Shown here piece after piece: positions 3,437-43,310 of a DNA stretch of 64,000 bases. The first letter of the stretch is position 1; each line of letters begins with the position of its first letter. The DNA lies in assembly GCA_001953115.1 (NCBI GenBank), contig LSSL01000161.1, positions 132,458 to 196,457 on the forward strand, in the 5' to 3' direction. A model generated the notes under the pieces. It ran no database searches. It was given only the letters and a program-made list of their open reading frames with translations, and was not told the DNA's origin. The DNA is from Smittium mucronatum (taxonomy: Eukaryota > Kickxellomycota > Harpellomycetes > Harpellales > Legeriomycetaceae). Position numbers and translations under genes: made by a program.

Positions 3437-3510
3437 CGCTCCCACCTAGGCTTGAACTAGGAACCTCCTGATTAACAGTCAGACGCGCTAACCAATTGCG
3501 CCATGGAAGC
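3437..3510 (-). tRNA. tRNA-Asn (anticodon GTT)
   Basis: The minus strand folds into a complete cloverleaf. The acceptor arm is GCTTCCA paired with TGGGAGC, followed by discriminator G. The D arm is GCGC/GCGC. The anticodon stem is TCTGA/TCAGG with loop CTGTTAA, giving anticodon GTT. The T arm is CCTAG-TTCAAGC-CTAGG, which also holds the Pol III B box. There is no intron and no encoded CCA. The 5' end lies one base from the 3' end of the neighbouring tRNA-Tyr, so the two are almost certainly transcribed together. Confidence 0.95.
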
Positions 3511-3511
3511 T

Positions 3512-3592
3512 TCCGAACACCCGGGTTTGAACCAGGGACCTAGAGATATCAGTTTACTACAGTCTCCCGCTCTACCGCTGAGCTATATTCGG
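3512..3592 (-). tRNA. tRNA-Tyr (anticodon GTA) with a 9-nt intron
   Basis: The minus strand shows acceptor CCGAATA paired with TGTTCGG plus discriminator A. The C1-G72 pair is typical of eukaryotic tRNA-Tyr. The D arm is GCTC/GAGC. The anticodon stem GGAGA/TCTCT encloses a 16-nt loop instead of 7: CTGTAG, then nine extra bases (TAAACTGAT), then A. This matches the canonical intron position between nucleotides 37 and 38 and leaves anticodon GTA. The T arm is CCTGG-TTCAAAC-CCGGG. tRNA-Tyr genes of most fungi and animals carry an intron here. It is the upstream member of a tandem pair with tRNA-Asn. Confidence 0.95.
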
Positions 3593-13554: not shown

Positions 13555-16086
13555 TTATTTATCTACTTTTGGGGCTTTTTCTGGCTCGATATAGTCAAAT
13601 CTCCATATAAAAGCACTGTCACTACCATATACAATACTCCTAATAGATTGAAGTTAGATAGAAATGAATTTTTCAATCATCGCATTTATCTAATAAAAAA
13701 AGATAAATATGTGTACAAAGAAATAATGAATGTACCTATTGTCTTCTGAAAAAACACAGCATGTTATCGGGCGGATGGATCTTTTATGTTGAATTCTGGA
13801 TATTGTTTTCCCACTCTCGATTTCAAATATATAAATAATCCCTCGAGAATTCCCTACGCACACAAATTTCCCATCTCGGCTATAAATATTAAGTACGTTT
13901 TAAATATGGAAAATTGCAAAATGATTGCTATGATCTGACATTTATCAACATTACCTAATATCAAATTTACACACATTTTCATCATTGTGCGGAATACTAA
14001 AAGTATTTTTAATCTATAAAAAGTGTTAAAAAATAAGTTCTAAATATTTTTCCCTTTAAAATTTATGCAAAAAGGTAAAATTACCTTATTATCAATGGAG
14101 TTTATTAAATAAAATTCTCCACCAATGCTTTTAGCAAGTATATCATCAGATATGAACCGTATACAATCTTAATGATTACAAAAAGAAACAGCAGACCATT
14201 ATTAATGATTTTTTTTGGAGAATAAAAAAGCAATTTTTTTAGTTTTTGTTTGGAAAAGAATCCGTTCCCTCCCAAGAAAAATAAAACAGGATTACCATTT
14301 TTCGAAAAAGAATATTTCTTTCCTGGAGCGATCAAACGGCTTTGATCGATTTTAACAGTTTCTATCTTTCCATCAATATTTGATTGGCTTGGTTTTTTTG
14401 TTGGGGTACATTCTAAATATTCAGTATCAAATATCGGCCAAATCCTGATCTCACCATTGGAAGAACCTGTGCAAAATTCCAAGCCATCGCTTTTAACACA
14501 CTATAAATTAATTTGACGAAAAAAACGGATATTACTTTAAAAAATTCAATTTAATGTCTTTTAAAATAAATATTTACTATTGCTGTAGCCTCATATTCGT
14601 AAACTGCCAATAATTTTTTTAGTTTAACATTCCAAATTTTTATAGTTTTATCATAGGAAGAAGTGAGTATGGTATTTTGGAGAAATGGATGTTGGGCAAC
14701 CGTGGTAATTGGCTCTAAAATATATATAATGTGTTAGAATATAAAAAATATGAACTTGAATTATTGTCGATTTATAGGTGAAGACGCTATTGATTGTAAC
14801 TGGTTTAATCTCATTTAAAGTTACTTTTGTGGGCATCTATTATAGCAACTTCTTTATTCCAAGATAGGCTGATAACTCTTATCTTCCCCTCGCTATCACC
14901 TACAGCAAATAAAGAGTCTTCTTTACTGAACACCCAACATGCGGTGTTAAATCTAAGAGAAAAAAATTCATCTTTTTGAAGTTTAATAGGATTATATGGG
15001 TAAATTAGGTCTTTTTAAAATGTCATAATAAAAAAAATGGTTTCTAGATAGAAATAAATAAAAATAGAATAGTTACTTAGAATCCTTAACGTAATAATTA
15101 GACATAATATCCAAATGGTCTCCGCAATGCTCATTATCATAAATGGATACCTAATTTATAGCGAAAAATATTTGATATAGGTGAGGAAATAAATCTGTAT
15201 TAAAAAAAAATCTTTAATGAGGATGATACCTGATTTCTAGAACAGCTAAGCAAAACGTTATCATTATAACAAAAATCAGTTTCATCTGAGACTGATTTTG
15301 AATATTTGCCATAGAATGAATCACTATTTTTTGAGCTATAAATTGGATGGAACTCTGAAGCCTCTTGATTTGCAGTATTATTTGAAATTTCACGATTATC
15401 ATCGTGGATGTTATCATTTAAAGCTTTTCCAGTATCTGAGGCCTCGGATTCTTGTACATTTTGCCTCGAAAAATTAAACAAGACAGACAATATTGGGGTG
15501 TTGTGATTTTCTTTTATTATTCGCCTGAGATGTAAATTTTTGAATAATTCTACATAATCATTTTTTTTGGGCTTGGACTTGTAGAAATCTTTCTCAGAAA
15601 TTTGATCGGATTGAGTTGTATCATGTGAAGTATGATCTTCATCCAAATCCATTTTTCTTTCTGTACAAGTAAAGTTTTTGTTAGATAAAATATTTGCAAA
15701 CTTGATTTTCAATTTCTAAAATTTCTCCAAAATGTCCTGATAGAGGTATTTAATACTATTCACTTTACCTTCATTCAACTTATCATTTTTTTCTACATTA
15801 TATCGTGTTTTTAAGCATATAAGATCTATAAGTCGAAGAATATTACTTTTAAAGGCATTTCGCATCAATAAAAATGTTTTATTGTTGAAGTCTATTTACC
15901 TTCAGATTTATTTTCAATTTTGATTTCTTCAGAATTCAGTACAGGGGAAATTGATATTTCTTCGATTCTGGGATTTTTTGCAGGGGCTTTAAATAGCTGT
16001 AGAACATCTAAATTTGTGTCTGATCGAGGGCGTTTGCTGACGAAATCAAAATCTTCTATTACCCCTTCATCATCTCTATGAACCAT
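13555..16086 (-). CDS. EED: EED/ESC homologue, WD40 subunit of Polycomb repressive complex 2
   Basis: Eleven exons join in frame to 529 codons plus TAA: 16086-15900, 15825-15769, 15660-15230, 15150-15077, 14952-14825, 14714-14578, 14500-14296, 14167-14085, 14013-13955, 13879-13736, 13639-13555. All introns are GT-AG, 71-128 nt. After an acidic N-terminal tail the product is a WD40 propeller matching EED blade by blade: KENHNTPILSVLFN (131-144), VSIYDNEHC (226), FNTACWVF..LFAVGDSEGKIRVI, ILTSSYDKTIKIWNV, FCTGSSNGEIRIW, DCIRFISDDILAKS, DGKFVCVGNSRGIIYIFEI, and the C-terminal AFIWRFD. EED binds EZH2 and SUZ12 and supports H3K27 methylation in the nucleus. Two oddities are an acidic insertion of about 68 residues (148-215) in the first blade, and non-aromatic residues at the H3K27me3-cage positions. 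The family call is firm; exon 2 and the first exon are the least certain parts. Confidence 0.9.
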
Positions 16087-32274: not shown

Positions 32275-33947
32275 ATGCTAATAACTAAGCGATTAATGTG
32301 TGGTATTTTTCTATCTAAAAATATAAAATTTATTGAAAAGGCTATAAATTCGAATGCTCCAGAGACCTACGAAATGACAAAATCTTCTACTCCACAAAAA
32401 ATTAAGAAAAATCTAAATGAAGGAAAATGCCAACTAATATATATTTCCGATGACGATGATGCTAATGATCAAGAATATACCAACAGAAGCAAATTTATTA
32501 ATTTAGATGATCTTTCTGATAAAGGTAATAAATGAGGCTCAAGCGATAAATTTGCTTTTTGTTTTATTATTAATTAGTTAAAATTTAAAAATTCTTTATA
32601 GATTGCACAATAATCCAAGGGCCCTTAACTAAAAAAAACGGTGGGATAGATATTTTTGGAGACTCTAAAAATTCAAAAAAAAGATCTTTGAATTCAAAAA
32701 TTAGTGATTTAAAAGAAACTTTAGACAAAAAAACTAGGAAAAACAAAGAATCATCTTTTCAATTCGAGTTTGGAAAAGTTCTGCTGGTAGGGGATGTTGG
32801 AAATTCAAATGATGTTTCTATGAAAATAAGCGATCTTATGCGCCATCAAAATAAAAGTCCAATTAAAGCTATTTTGACCACATTTGTGCTAGATTACGAT
32901 TGGGTTAGATCTGTTATTGGGGAATCGACTAAAATATGTTTAGCCTTCCATTCTGAAAAATCCCCAGAATATAAAAAAGGAGCTTTAAAATTGGATTCTA
33001 AAACTGTGATAATCAATCCACCGCAACACCAAGGCAGATACGGAATTTTCCACCCAAAGCTATCTATATTATGGTTTCCAGAGTTCGCCCGACTCATAGT
33101 AGCATCTGCAAACTTGGTTCCTTTTGATTATGAATGTATTAATAATATATTGTATGTCCATGATTTTCCTATACAATGTAAAAGTGATACTAAACACAAA
33201 AATGATCATCTAAATTGCAATTCAAATAAATCCCGTTTAGTCAAATTTTTGAGTGAGATTGGATTCCCTTCACAGTCGTTGGATGAGGTTGAGAATATAG
33301 ATTTTTCTAGTTTTGAGGGCGAACTAATCTTTTCTTGCCCCGGGTATTATGATACAGAGTCTACTGAATATGGGTATCGAAGTTTAAATTCAGGAATAGA
33401 AAAACTTTATCCAAACCCTAACTCCACCCAATATACCAGGTATCACTGTTCATCTCTTGGATTTATGAGTAAAAAATGGATTGGGGTTGTCTCAGAATAT
33501 CTGAACCTTCAGAATGAAATACAAATATCTTTCCCCACTAAAAAGCAGGTAGAAGAAAGCACCTTAGGGACGGACGGAGCTGGATCTATAATTTTATCAA
33601 AGCCAAGTTTCTTTTCAAACGATTTCCCAAAAAAACAATTATTCAAACATCAATTTACTACGAAAGGTTCTCTCTCCCATTCAAAAATATTTTACACCAA
33701 ATATCTAAACTCTGACCTCGGTTGGATTTACTTAGGCAGCCACAACTTCACAAAGTCTGCTTGGGGTAATACAAACAGAAATAAATATTCGGTAGCAAAT
33801 TTCGAGATGGGAGTTCTTTTAAGATGTAAGTTTGAGGGGAATTCGATTTATACTGTTAAGGACTCCAAAAAAACAAGCCGAATACCTCTGCCCTTCTCAA
33901 CTGAGTGGGAGCCATACAATGAATACGACACCCCTTGGATGCTCTAG
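32275..33947 (+). CDS. TDP1: Tyrosyl-DNA phosphodiesterase 1
   Basis: There are two exons, 32275-32524 and 32602-33947, joined across a 77-nt GT-AG intron to give 531 residues, close to the yeast and human enzymes (about 540-610). TDP1 hydrolyses the phosphotyrosyl bond left when topoisomerase I is trapped on DNA and cleans other 3' blocks in the nucleus. Both phospholipase-D-type HxK motifs are present: FHPKLSILWF (His234, Lys236) and LSHSKIFY (His443, Lys445). The second is followed by GWIYLGSHNFTKSAWG, a TDP1 signature; ASANLVPFDYE follows the first motif. The N-terminal 110 residues are charged and probably disordered. The ATG at 32275 directly follows an in-frame TAA; a later Met (residue 34, MTKSSTP) is an alternative start. 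The gene converges on MCM10 with 241 bp between stops. Confidence 0.93.
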
Positions 33948-34188: not shown

Positions 34189-35477
34189 TCAGGAGTCTAA
34201 AGTGCTAAAAGGGATTTGTACAGTTTCCAGTTTAATTTTCTTAATCTTTTCTGGTTGGAGAACATGAGGGGTGGTGCTATCTAAGAACATGTTCCTTTTT
34301 CTTCTAGATACTTGATATGCGTTTGCCAAATGAAAATCACATACATTGGACATATTTCTATATGTAATAATTTTTTTTAAAAAATGAGATAGGTATGATG
34401 CATAATTATTATAATTCGATAATTTCCTTACATATTTATCATTTCCTGGCATGGCTTGTCATCTTGAAGTTTTCCTTTGCAAAAAATAGCATCTCTTGAT
34501 TTTCCAACCAGTAAAATCTGAGATTGGGATTTTACATTTAAGAACACGACTTCCTGGCTCTAAAAAAACAATTAAAAAATACATTTAATGGATTTCTATT
34601 GAATTTTTTTCATCAAAATAAAATAATGGAATTTGATTGCATATTTACTTTAACTTTTCGAGAAAATGTTATTACAGGGTTAGAAACAGATATTATGTAG
34701 AAGGGCTTTAATTTACTTATAAATTCACTTCCATTAGAGAACAAGAGAATCACTACATCCCTTCCAGATAAATCAGTGGCTATAAGCCTATAGCATTTTT
34801 TTCCCTTCGAGCTCTCAATTTCAACTGGATCTTTTTTTAAAACAACAAATGTAGACCAAGGAGCTTTTTTGGCTATATCCTGCTTTTTTTCTTTTACTTG
34901 CTCTATGATTTCGCTTAGTTTAACATTTTCGAATCTTTTCATGAATTGGTTCACTTGTTCCAAAGTTGCAATTCTGGTCCTAAATAAAAAAAAAATCACT
35001 AAAATGAAAAGAAATAAATAGAAAGGTGTAAAGAACATATAATATAAATGAGGAATACTAATGATTAATGTTATAAATTTAAGATTAATACAGTAAATGC
35101 TTAAATACATACGCTAAATTAAGTTTACTGTATGGTTCATATTGAGGATTGGAACAATTTGTAACTTCTTTAGGATGTACCACTTTAAAATCATAATCTT
35201 TAGAATTATTTGATACAGCCAGTCGCGCTTTCCTTGAATCATTTTGAACTTTTTTGTTTTCTTCAAGAGCTTTCTTAAACATCGATCGAATAGGTTCAAA
35301 ACTATAATACAGAATTTTTTTTGACAGTAGCTGATATCTTATAAATAAAATAAATATTTGGGCTTATATTTTCATATTCTATTAAAGTAATTGCAACTTG
35401 ACTACATACTACGATTTATACGAAAATATGCCTAAACTATTTAAATCGTCGCCTAAAGCTCTATAATCCTTTTTCAT
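34189..35477 (-). CDS. MCM10: MCM10 replication factor (short form)
   Basis: Five exons join in frame to 293 codons: 35477-35413, 35301-35113, 34979-34649, 34559-34432, 34357-34189. MCM10 binds the CMG helicase, Pol alpha and single-stranded DNA and is needed for origin firing. After YEPYSKLNLATRIATLEQVN, an OB-fold domain spans about residues 90-205 (WSTFVVLKK, RLIATDLSGRDVVILLF, KPFYIISVSNPVI). A zinc finger of spacing C-x9-C-x11-C-x2-H follows (Cys222, Cys232, Cys244, His247), the same spacing I recall for vertebrate MCM10. The protein ends about 45 residues after the finger, so it is much shorter than yeast (about 570) or human MCM10. The OB-zinc finger core is firm; the first exon (MKKDYRALGDDLNSLGIF) fits splice phase but is less certain. 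A foldback element lies 92 bp upstream. Confidence 0.88.
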
Positions 35478-38503: not shown

Positions 38504-41500
38504 CTAGTTCGGTAAATATCGATGTTTAGAAAGTGGGGAAGATACATTTGGTTTGTTTGAAAATATGGGATTAAAGGGTGGAATATTGGGGTTTCTATTA
38601 TCGGCTCGTGGGCTATTGAGAACTCTGTTAGAATCATTACCAAATGGATTGAAAGTCGATGTAACGGAAACACGACCATCAACGGTTATGGCTTGGTTAG
38701 TTTTGATCATATTTCGATTTTTTTCGTCAACCAAATTTAAATTATCAGCAATAGATGGGCCACGAGATGCCAATTGAGATGGTCTGGCACGAGTTTGGTT
38801 GTATATATCACTATTTTCTGGATTATTAATGCTGGGATCTAAATGTTGAAAATTACTAGATAATTCGGAAAAGACAGGTGAAGATATGGGCCTCATCGGT
38901 AAGGGTTTTGATCTATATTGACTATCACTATTTATATTGGTATGATTCACACCATAATTGTTTTTAGACCTAGAAAAAGAAAGATCATTAGTAGGGTCTA
39001 ATGGTTTACTTCTTTTTGGACTAAGTAATTTACTATGACGACGCAATAAGGGAGCAGCATGGTTGTTACAATATATGCCATCACCTATTTGCACGGCAGT
39101 ATGAGGCCGTAGACTACTTTGACATTCTTTACATTTCAAACAAGGTCTGTGATACTGATACCCTTCAAAAGATATCTTATCAGTAGGATATACAACTTTA
39201 TTACATCTAGGGCATAAGGGCTGATTGTACCCATTAATAACTATAGATTCGTTTCTAATTGAGTTATAGTCTCCAAGATTTGATTCATTATGACCTGAAT
39301 TTATTTTAATAGGAGGGTTTTTGTCAGTATAAGGATTTGAACCATTCTTATTGAATGTTGGAGAACTGAGCATAGTTTTTTTTTCTAGTACATGGGTCTT
39401 GTGCTCTTGTCTTATCTCCCTCTCAGTAAGCCACTCGGTTCCACTAGGGGTTTGGGTTCTTTCCTGCTCAGATATTTTTTCTTTCTTATTGTCGACGTTC
39501 CCTGTAAGCTCAAAATAATGTTTCATAGCATTGTCGGTCTTATCAAAGTAGTTTTTCTTATTATGCATATAATCTACGAAGTCGCTGATATTCTCAAATG
39601 ATTGAGATGGGAAGATATTTGTATTCTGCTCACCAAATCTCCATCCAGAAGAAATAACTGGACTTTTTAAACCGCCACCGCCCCTTATAGTAGGTTTAGA
39701 TGTGGTGGGGGACCTAAGGTTATTGATGTTTGTGGATTTAGCCGGACTGATAAAATCGTTCGAGCTTATATTATTTGATATTTCATCTTTAGAAATATGA
39801 TTTTCAATACTATTACTAAATGATTTGCGGCTATTGGTGTATTTGTTCCCCAAGTTTACAATTTTTTCTTTACAATCATCACATATCATACGATTAGAAT
39901 AGATGCCTAAATTCTGGCTGCTTGAATTTAATTTTTTGGAGCATGAGTTACAGAAAAAAGCCTCTTCATTTTTAGCTTTGATAGCAGGGTTTGATTCTAT
40001 GTACCTTTTAAAATATGCACTTAGTAATTCGTCGCGATAAGGAACAGAAGAGATTGATTCACTTGGAGCGATAGAACAGGCTGAATTAACATCGGAAACT
40101 TTGAGACCTCCACCCTTCAAATCGGGGATAAGTATAGATTCGGATCCGTTGACTGGAACGGTATTTACAGGAAATTTAGGAGAGTCTGATACAAAAGAAG
40201 AACCTTCCTGGTCCTCCTTTGGTAAGCTCAATTTCCCTCTTCTATAAGCATCCATCAATGTAGATGTACTATCTCTATAATTAGATGAAATGCTTGAGTA
40301 TGAAGTTTTAGCCTCTGGCAAAACATTAGGTTCCGGGTTTACCAAATTTTTGGCTGTAGCGCCAGGGGGTGGAGAGGGAAATTTCCCAAAAACAGGGGTT
40401 GGAGGCTTGGGAAATTCGATCTCTGAGCTTTGCTGATCGTTGGGGACAGAAGATGAGATCTCGTGTGATGAGGGATTGACGGAGTAGTTGAAATTGCGAG
40501 TGTAGTTTCCAGGAGTTTCTTTAGAATCAAGAGGGGCACTTTGATTTTCAAAAGATTGTTTACTGGTAGGAGGATTGTTCAAGTTTGTCTCATTAAGGGG
40601 TGCGTTCATTTTTACCGGAAAATTCTGTGGCACTGGGCTTTGGGCATTAGAGGGAGTGGAGGGGATGCTTTTATAAAATCTTTGATACTGTTGTTTAACT
40701 TCTTCGAAATTTGGATGATCACTATTTACAGAATACGAAGAATCTTGTGCACTGATACCTCCATTTAAAAGAGGAGATGAAGGAAGCTTATTGTTCATGG
40801 GATTGTAATACGACGAAGGATCATTTTGACCATTTTTTAATATACTAGCTGAATCAGATCTATATAATTGCTCTTTTTTAGAAGAATAATTATCTTGAAA
40901 AGATATACTGGATTTTTTAGATATTATTGTACCATCATCTTTAAAGTTTGCTAACGTATTAGTTTTCTCAGTGAATTTTGGAGGATTTTCGTTAATGAAA
41001 GGCGATTGCGGTTCTAAAGACAATCTAGATGGTGTAAGACGAGTGCTAAATATAGGAGCTTGTACTGATAGAGATGAACCTTCTCTTTTTTTGTTTGGTA
41101 TTTTTGGAAGTGGTCTAAAACTAGCTGATGAAGATGTTCTAGATGAATGATGCAACTGAGGAGAGTTGGGAAGACTTGGACTGTTATTTTCTGATTTTTG
41201 TAAAATGTTTGAAGGAAAATTGGTCATAAAATTAGAGTAATCTAATAGGGCAGGGCTACTACGTTGTTTGTTTAAACTTCTTTCAGACCCACTGCTGGAA
41301 GCATTCTCTTTCAAGTTTTCATATTTATAAGCGCCACCCTTCAAATTAGAGATGGATTTTTTGACGTCTGGATTGATTTCGAACTGAGAAGGCGTATTGT
41401 TCATAGAATCAGAACCAGATGGAACATTTTGGTAGGCTTCAGAATTTTTAGCTTTCGAATTATTAGATTCACCGTCCTCTAAAGATGGAGAGTTATTTTG

Positions 41501-43310
41501 AGCATCTATACCAAACGTCGAGCCACGATAAAGAGATTTAAATTCCCCTCTTAAATCATCTATGTTTGACATGTACACGGATTTTGGTGTTTCAGATAAA
41601 ATACGAAATTCAGACTGAATATTTAAAGGTTCGACTTTAAGGCTATTTGGAATATTCCAATCAAAATTAGTGTTAAGATTAAAATTTTTGTTTTTAGGAC
41701 TAAATCCATTGGTGATTGAGTTTGAAGAGCCTCCATCTAAATTTTTAGATATGGGCTTATTTTGATGCTCATGATTAATATTTTCTTTCTCTTTGATAGA
41801 ATTCCTAGAATCAGATTTAGGAACAGGAGAAGAATTGGCGAAGAAATACTCTTTTTCAATAAGAACTGGCTTGGATTTGGATTTTTTGAGAGATAATCTG
41901 GATTCTAGAATGGGGGATGGGCTTGGAGTAAGCTGAGAAGGATAAGGTTGATTGTAGTATAAGCCATTAGAAAATTTTGGATCTACCCAGTCAGTTCTAC
42001 TAAGCACCTCGCTGAGTTCGTTCTCTGGGTCAGAGTAAGGCATGGGGTATTGACAAGCTTCTTTCAAACTCATTTGTGGAGTGTGAGGAATATCGCTAAA
42101 ATCGTCATTTATCGGTGCGGTTTTAGAAAGTACATCATCCAACTCCGATTTTTCACGATCAATAAATCTGTGCTTTTGATTAAGGACTCTTAAATATTCT
42201 TTTAATTCATCTTCATCAAAATATTGCTTAAGTAAACCATCAATTCGATCTGAAAAAAGATTTAGAGACGTCTTATTCGAAGTGCTATCAATGTCAGATG
42301 AAGCAGAAACATCGATGTTAGAACTATCAGCATCACCTCCGCCATTTAAAATATCCTTTATAATCTGATTATCGATATCAATTTTGTCAGCCAAAGATTG
42401 AATATCGGAATTTTCAAAGGGAGATTCTGATTTAAAAACGCTGTTGGGAACAGATCTACTTATAGATCTGATAGATTCGCGGACGAAGTTATCTAATTTC
42501 TTACGGATAGTATCCTTATCAAGATCACCTGTTTGTAAAAGAGAAGAATCGATTTCGGGATCTAAAAAAATTTAATTAGAATATTAATACCGATGAAATT
42601 ATACATTACCAGCTAAATTTATAATTTTAAAGGTACCTGAAAAGTTCGTCAAGAAAGGTTTTTGAGATACGTTTTTAACGTTGAATAAAGGATCTTCTTT
42701 GTCAGAAACATCCTTATTTATAGAACTAACACTTGCAACATCAAATTGTTTACCACCACCGACAAGCTCCAGCTTTGGCTCTTCTGCAATAACCGACGAT
42801 GAATTATCTACTGTAGAAGTTACCTGGAGATTTTCATTCTCCAATTCTTTAGGCGTAATGTTTGAATGATTGGTAATATCAGCTATTTCAAGCTCGATGG
42901 CATGATCTTCATTAAAATTTCCACTAATTGATGGACTACTCCCATTTGAAAAATTTTTACTTCCAGTTTTGATAGTTGATAAAGAACTGCCATTGTCAAA
43001 CCCCGATTCTTTATTTTTTCTGAGCTAAATTGGGTAAAAATAAATAAATAGAAATTTTCTAACATTTATGGAAAAAATTTCAAGTGCAAACTTTTATTAT
43101 ATTTTTAATGGGATTACCTGTATGAACACCTTTGTAACACCGGACTTTCCACTCCCGTCTTTCAATTCGCCTGTTACTCGAATATCATAGGAATATGGCG
43201 CCTGTATATGCGCAGAATCGATCTAAAAGAAAATGATCAAAATAAACAAAGTATTAGTACCATATTGCAAGAATCCTAGATAAAATACATACGTTATTGC
43301 TTTTTAGCAT
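38504..43310 (-). CDS. Large disordered LIM-domain protein (~1531 aa)
   Basis: Four exons join in frame: 43310-43293 (MLKSNN), 43222-43118, 43024-42610, 42561-38504. Introns are 70, 93 and 48 nt, GT-AG. The N-terminus (AHIQAPYSYDIRVTGELKDG, about 10-29) looks folded and is unrecognised. Most of the rest is Ser/Asn/Pro-rich and disordered. A four-Cys zinc site CNSC..CDDC lies at 1050-1076 and one LIM domain at about 1296-1347 (CPRCNKVV, HRPCLKCKEC, CNNH). LIM domains are zinc-dependent protein-binding modules; long fungal LIM proteins with disordered N-termini (paxillin-like Pxl1, Rho-GAP Rga/Lrg) work at sites of polarity and the actin ring, but no GAP domain is present here. A repeated ELxxVLSxT motif (319-327, 361-369) and several GG motifs are notable. 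Family beyond LIM is not assigned; the six-codon first exon is the least certain part. Confidence 0.85.

Follow-up and report, generated by a model that had tools for sequence, protein, structure and literature searches.

Within a 64-kb stretch of the genome of Smittium mucronatum, a member of the Harpellales (Kickxellomycotina), (64,000 nucleotides, called the window here), a gene on the minus strand at 16086..13555 encodes an EED-like WD40 protein. EED is a subunit of Polycomb repressive complex 2 (PRC2) and contains a pocket for histone H3 trimethylated at lysine 27 (H3K27me3). An earlier, sequence-only reading took the protein for the EED of a PRC2 that has lost H3K27me3 feedback. The locus therefore raises the question of whether it encodes a Polycomb subunit with a recently lost sensor or a relative of EED with another job. 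Our analysis indicates that it is probably the latter. The encoded protein is a member of a distinct EED-like clade, which we name EED-B. We propose, with a probability of about 0.6, that EED-B is an old clade of EED-like WD40 proteins from fungi outside the Dikarya, which lacks the cage and may serve as an adaptor that docks a partner other than E(z).

The aromatic cage is absent from the Smittium protein

The gene has 10 exons in a single open frame and a 510-residue product. In human EED the cage is formed by F97, Y148 and Y365, with W364 packing alongside (PMC8404197). The window protein and 29 other EED-B rows were aligned by L-INS-i with 17 canonical EEDs (human and 16 others). The human reference is identical to PDB 6c23_L at 441 of 441 letters. 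F97, Y148, W364 and Y365 correspond to L120, N233, N428 and V429 of the window protein, encoded on the minus strand at 15488..15490, 14946..14948 and, for the last two residues, 13972..13977. An hhalign comparison of family profiles, with the window row left out, gave the identical register at the cage sites for the orthologue P0002. The Leu, Asn and Asn-Val named by the sequence-only reading are borne out by the L-INS-i alignment. The three motifs it quoted around these sites are present, with residue numbers 19 lower because its 529-residue model was 19 residues longer. The neighboring framework is retained, as it had also stated (KENHN/KEDHN, PxxxVxFN, FxTxxW and KF/RF). Of exon boundaries that might have restored the aromatics, the alternative splice acceptors tried for exon 4 (three) and exon 8 (one) all lead to stop codons, as judged by eye on the three-frame translation. 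Because the cage is absent while the EED-like framework is retained, the window protein is unlikely to read H3K27me3 through the former cage site.

EED-B is a separate clade with a nearly invariant loop

The EED-B family comprises 46 proteins, 38 of the 51 matches in one database search and 8 of the 72 in a second; the weak tail of both lists consists of generic WD40 proteins. Where the species is named, the members belong to chytrids, to Mucoromycota (Glomeromycotina among them) or to Kickxellomycotina; two members carry no species name. No Dikarya member was found among the database matches. The search depends on shared five-residue words, so distant members may have been missed. Fragments, near-duplicates and mis-fused rows were omitted, leaving 30 of the 46 proteins in alignment A1, 29 in the alignment with canonical EEDs and 26 in alignment A2. 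In the searchable literature, which leaves out subscription papers and preprints, we saw no account of this family.

The hallmark of the family is a loop, YDNEHCGDHLDI, found at residues 210-221 of the window protein (15106..15141, minus strand). In a 31-row alignment 11 of its 12 positions are invariant and the twelfth is conserved in at least 90%. The loop is carried by 29 of 30 EED-B rows and by none of the 17 canonical rows. It is absent from the S. megazygosporum annotation P0003, perhaps because of a missed exon. Coemansia P0004 has N for H within it, and Syncephalastrum P0052, outside the 30-row set, has I for C and L for I.

The missing cage characterizes the clade as a whole. Among 28 ungapped EED-B rows, 20 have no aromatic residue (F, W or Y) at the four sites, the window protein among them, seven have one and a single row has two; each of the two gapped rows has one. 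In contrast, 14 of 16 ungapped canonical EEDs have all four and the other two have three. Site 364 is aromatic in none of the 30 EED-B rows. In the other five Harpellales rows all four sites are non-aromatic, apart from S. culicis P0001, which has F at site 97. Asparagine is the commonest EED-B residue at sites 97 (16 of 29 rows) and 364 (23 of 30). Two ascomycete canonical EEDs, Xylographa P0164 and Neophaeococcomyces P0165, share N at the Y148 site with the window protein, and asparagine there is therefore not telling by itself. Unlike the window protein, they keep aromatic residues at three of the four sites, with F at the W364 site, and group with canonical EED.

Phylogenetic analysis separated EED-B from canonical EED with support of 100/100 in a 45-row tree, which is unrooted and has a long branch between the groups; coral P0111 and Polychytrium P0037 were left out beforehand. 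The window protein is sister to S. culicis P0001 (100/99). The six Harpellales rows group together (100/100), and they group with Coemansia (95/95). Placing the window protein within canonical EED was rejected by the approximately unbiased (AU) test (p-AU 6.6e-6), as was an origin of EED-B by duplication inside Glomeromycotina (p-AU 6.7e-70). Grouping EED-B with all fungal canonical EEDs gave p-AU 0.068, and with those of Glomeromycotina alone 0.039. Given these values, an unrooted tree and long branches, EED-B may be either the sister group of fungal EED or an older lineage.

The two types coexist in one fungus. The canonical set contains human EED and 16 of 94 matches from a human-EED search, which scored only the 7997 candidates richest in shared words. 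Aimed at longer proteins, this search found canonical EEDs with all four cage aromatics in Gigaspora rosea (P0133), Funneliformis geosporum and Scutellospora calospora. The first of these species also encodes the cage-less EED-B proteins P0018 and P0030, and EED-B occurs as P0021 in another Funneliformis, F. mosseae.

EED comes nearest to EED-B in fold and profile

One published survey points to the difficulty of delimiting EED orthologues (PMC10638273). A Pfam scan of the window protein gave, among the matches listed, only WD40-type or beta-propeller models, most below the cut-offs. When single sequences were searched against the PDB by phmmer, repetitive WD40 proteins ranked above EED, and with the family profile EED ranked eighth. 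Repetitive proteins gain because repeat scores add up, and we therefore compared best single stretches. On the canonical profile, 24 of 30 EED-B rows exceed the 70.4 bits of the top scorer among 29 generic WD40 proteins, with an EED-B maximum of 176. On the EED-B profile, all 17 canonical EEDs (59-132 bits) score above all 29 generic WD40 proteins (at most 57).

For fold comparison the orthologue P0002, modeled from 26 EED-B sequences, stands in for the window protein. Its predicted structure is a seven-bladed propeller of the EED type. EED/PRC2 entries occupy ranks 1-43 in Foldseek and 1-41 in VIA-align among the matches listed, and the VIA-align matches include Chaetomium Eed. They are followed by WDR5 in Foldseek and by DCAF2, COP1 and WDR5 in VIA-align. 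EED is thus the nearest fold of the orthologue and the nearest profile of the family.

Compared to canonical EED/ESC proteins, represented by human EED and Gigaspora rosea P0133, EED-B shares the propeller in the orthologue model and a full-length family-profile alignment, with common blocks KE-D/N-H, DC-V/I-R...LSKS and IWRWD/IWRYD. It differs in lacking the cage and in forming a separate clade, in the loop and in the turn from blade 3 to blade 4, which is shorter.

The conserved loop may form a docking surface

In the P0002 model, DSSP places the invariant loop at the connection between strands c and d in blade 1. In WD40 propellers, c-d loops are located on the bottom face. With loop limits drawn by hand from DSSP, conservation of this loop is 1.00 in EED-B and 0.28 in canonical EED. 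Averaged over the bottom loops, conservation is 0.59 versus 0.41, and over the top loops 0.54 versus 0.59. One top-face loop, d6-a7, is more conserved in EED-B (0.72 versus 0.38).

These features suggest a protein in which the reader face decayed and the docking loop changed. EED-B would keep the EED propeller, minus the aromatic cage on its top face, and would not read H3K27me3 as EED does. A putative partner other than E(z) would dock on the bottom face at the nearly frozen loop, and EED-B would act as an adaptor outside PRC2. A more specific history can be put forward tentatively, at somewhat less than even odds. EED-B may be an EED paralogue at least as old as the fungal radiation that outlived PRC2 and persisted in fungi lacking E(z); it would have given up its methyl-lysine reader and gained an invariant interface on the bottom face for an unrelated complex.

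Several observations weigh against the adaptor proposal. On the canonical profile, the six Harpellales rows, including the window protein (62.5 bits), fall short of the top generic WD40 score, so that kinship with EED rests on the wider family. The margin of EED over DCAF2, COP1 and WDR5 in the fold comparison is only about 3 Z. Site 365 is still aromatic in seven of 30 EED-B rows. The bottom-face position of the loop comes from DSSP of a predicted orthologue structure and the general topology of WD40 propellers, and without the blade-1 loop the bottom loops are only slightly more conserved in EED-B (0.51 versus 0.44). Chytrids carry EED-B, and some chytrids reportedly have E(z) (PMC9692433). 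The partner, its binding and the adaptor role are themselves proposals drawn from sequence and modeling.

Relation to PRC2 and alternative explanations

EED-B could instead be the EED subunit of a divergent early-fungal PRC2, or could serve alongside canonical EED as an alternative subunit. It would then provide a feedback-free scaffold, with reading left to another subunit, if any. The nearest fold and family profile are consistent with this, as are the E(z) proteins reported from some chytrids. In addition, EZH2 docks on the bottom face of EED, opposite the H3K27me3 pocket (PMC8404197), where the invariant loop would lie. However, this loop is unlike all 17 canonical rows, and EED-B is kept in Mucoromycota and Zoopagomycota, where a survey reports no E(z) among the species covered (PMC9692433). 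The genome searches described below add weak negatives. We regard a PRC2 subunit as unlikely. Of the sequence-only picture of a PRC2 without EED feedback but with its scaffold, the absent cage and the EED-like framework stand. Its identification of the protein as the EED of PRC2 is not supported, given the separate clade, the clade-wide absence of the cage and the coexistence of both types in Gigaspora rosea.

Searches of the S. mucronatum genome turned up no E(z) or SUZ12, no E(z)-type SET domain, CXC domain or VEFS box, and no second EED, a weak negative since the control SET1 was missed too. SET1 escaped both a SET-domain protein query and the motif EELT[FY]DY, more likely through split exons or an assembly gap than through loss. 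The VEFS and CXC profile models matched neither this genome nor any control genome. Exon-wise searches with human and Gigaspora EED gave no second EED and left the window gene itself undetected. The weakness of these negatives also counts against placing EED-B outside PRC2, and because SET1 was missed we make no claim that E(z) is absent. A SET survey gave eight matches from 10 candidates, by eye of SU(VAR)3-9/Clr4, SET2 and SET3 types and two of MYND type, with L013, L014 and L016 unsettled. None resembles E(z) by eye on the translations. The CXC-SET region of EZH2 gave three matches (C1208, C349 and C2370), by eye of Clr4, SET2 and SET3 types; its CXC part had no match in the genome, and an E(z) motif pattern had none either.

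The sequence-only reading drew an analogy to fungal systems in which another subunit reads the mark. In Cryptococcus, the chromodomain subunit Ccc1 gives PRC2 a reader of H3K27me3 in addition to EED, E(z) and Eed1 belong to the same complex, and a latent affinity of Eed1 for H3K9me2 has been proposed (PMC8788455). A comparable complex in Smittium would be hypothetical. A chromodomain search of the genome gave 21 matches, and a motif filter applied to 15 of 20 loci retained one, of CHD1 type by eye (L036). No Ccc1-like reader was identified in this partial look, which leaves room for one. A substitute reader is not called for on the present evidence.

Alternatively, the altered top face of EED-B may read another ligand, for example a peptide held by asparagines at sites 97 and 364. 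The frequency of asparagine at both sites and the conserved d6-a7 loop argue for this. However, site 97 is not asparagine in the window protein or in four of the other five Harpellales rows, and site 148 varies widely, which would not be expected of a pocket under selection. We regard this explanation as doubtful. Lineage-specific decay, in which a canonical Smittium EED recently lost its cage as the sequence-only reading had it, would fit the four substituted sites, their variation among Harpellales with F97 retained in S. culicis, and the lowest canonical-profile scores expected of faster-evolving rows, but it is very improbable given the clade-wide lack of the cage, the rejection of a canonical placement and the intact hallmark loop.

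In fungi reported to have no E(z), a cage-less EED-like family would give a natural test of the scaffold role of EED without H3K27 methylation. The paralogue history, if true, would be a case of a Polycomb scaffold put to new use in an unrelated complex. The frozen loop offers a direct handle for partner identification. PRC2 surveys rely on EED homologues, and a cage-less family in fungi reported to have no E(z) could mislead them. Separately, the canonical cage-bearing EEDs of Glomeromycotina (P0133, P0136 and P0137) fit awkwardly with the reported lack of E(z) in the surveyed Mucoromycota (PMC9692433).

Gene structure and neighborhood

All nine introns of the EED-B gene are GT-AG and measure 71-239 bases each. 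On the minus strand, exon 1 (15900..16086) includes the start codon at 16086. Exon 2 (15230..15660) encodes the N-terminal tail, the KENHN block, L120 and an insert in blade 1, and exon 3 (15077..15150) the hallmark loop. The product of these three exons, the first 231 residues, is 100% identical to the public protein P0059 (S. mucronatum AYI68_g511). That public model ends, within 15077-14953, by read-through from exon 3 into intron 3, with seven further exons downstream. N233 is in exon 4 (14825..14952), and a WD repeat region is in exon 5 (14578..14714). Exon 6 (14296..14500) is followed by exon 7 (14085..14167), in which DCIRF...ILAKS corresponds to DCVRW...ILSKS of EED in the family-profile alignment. 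Exon 8 (13955..14013) carries N428 and V429, and exon 9 (13736..13879) precedes exon 10 (13555..13639), which includes the stop codon.

MCM10-like exons are located at 34300-35113 on the minus strand (Pfam match below the cut-off). The Smittium simulii annotation P0009 fuses an MCM10-like gene to EED-B, so the neighborhood seems conserved; here about 18 kb separates the two. Two Smittium annotations fuse EED-B to an IF3 gene, for which no synteny was detected in the window. A tyrosyl-DNA phosphodiesterase gene (PF06087) is at 32589-33947 on the plus strand. The minus strand also carries an open reading frame of 1355 residues with a LIM domain close to its C-terminus (38504-42571) and a pair of adjoining tRNA genes (3437-3592).
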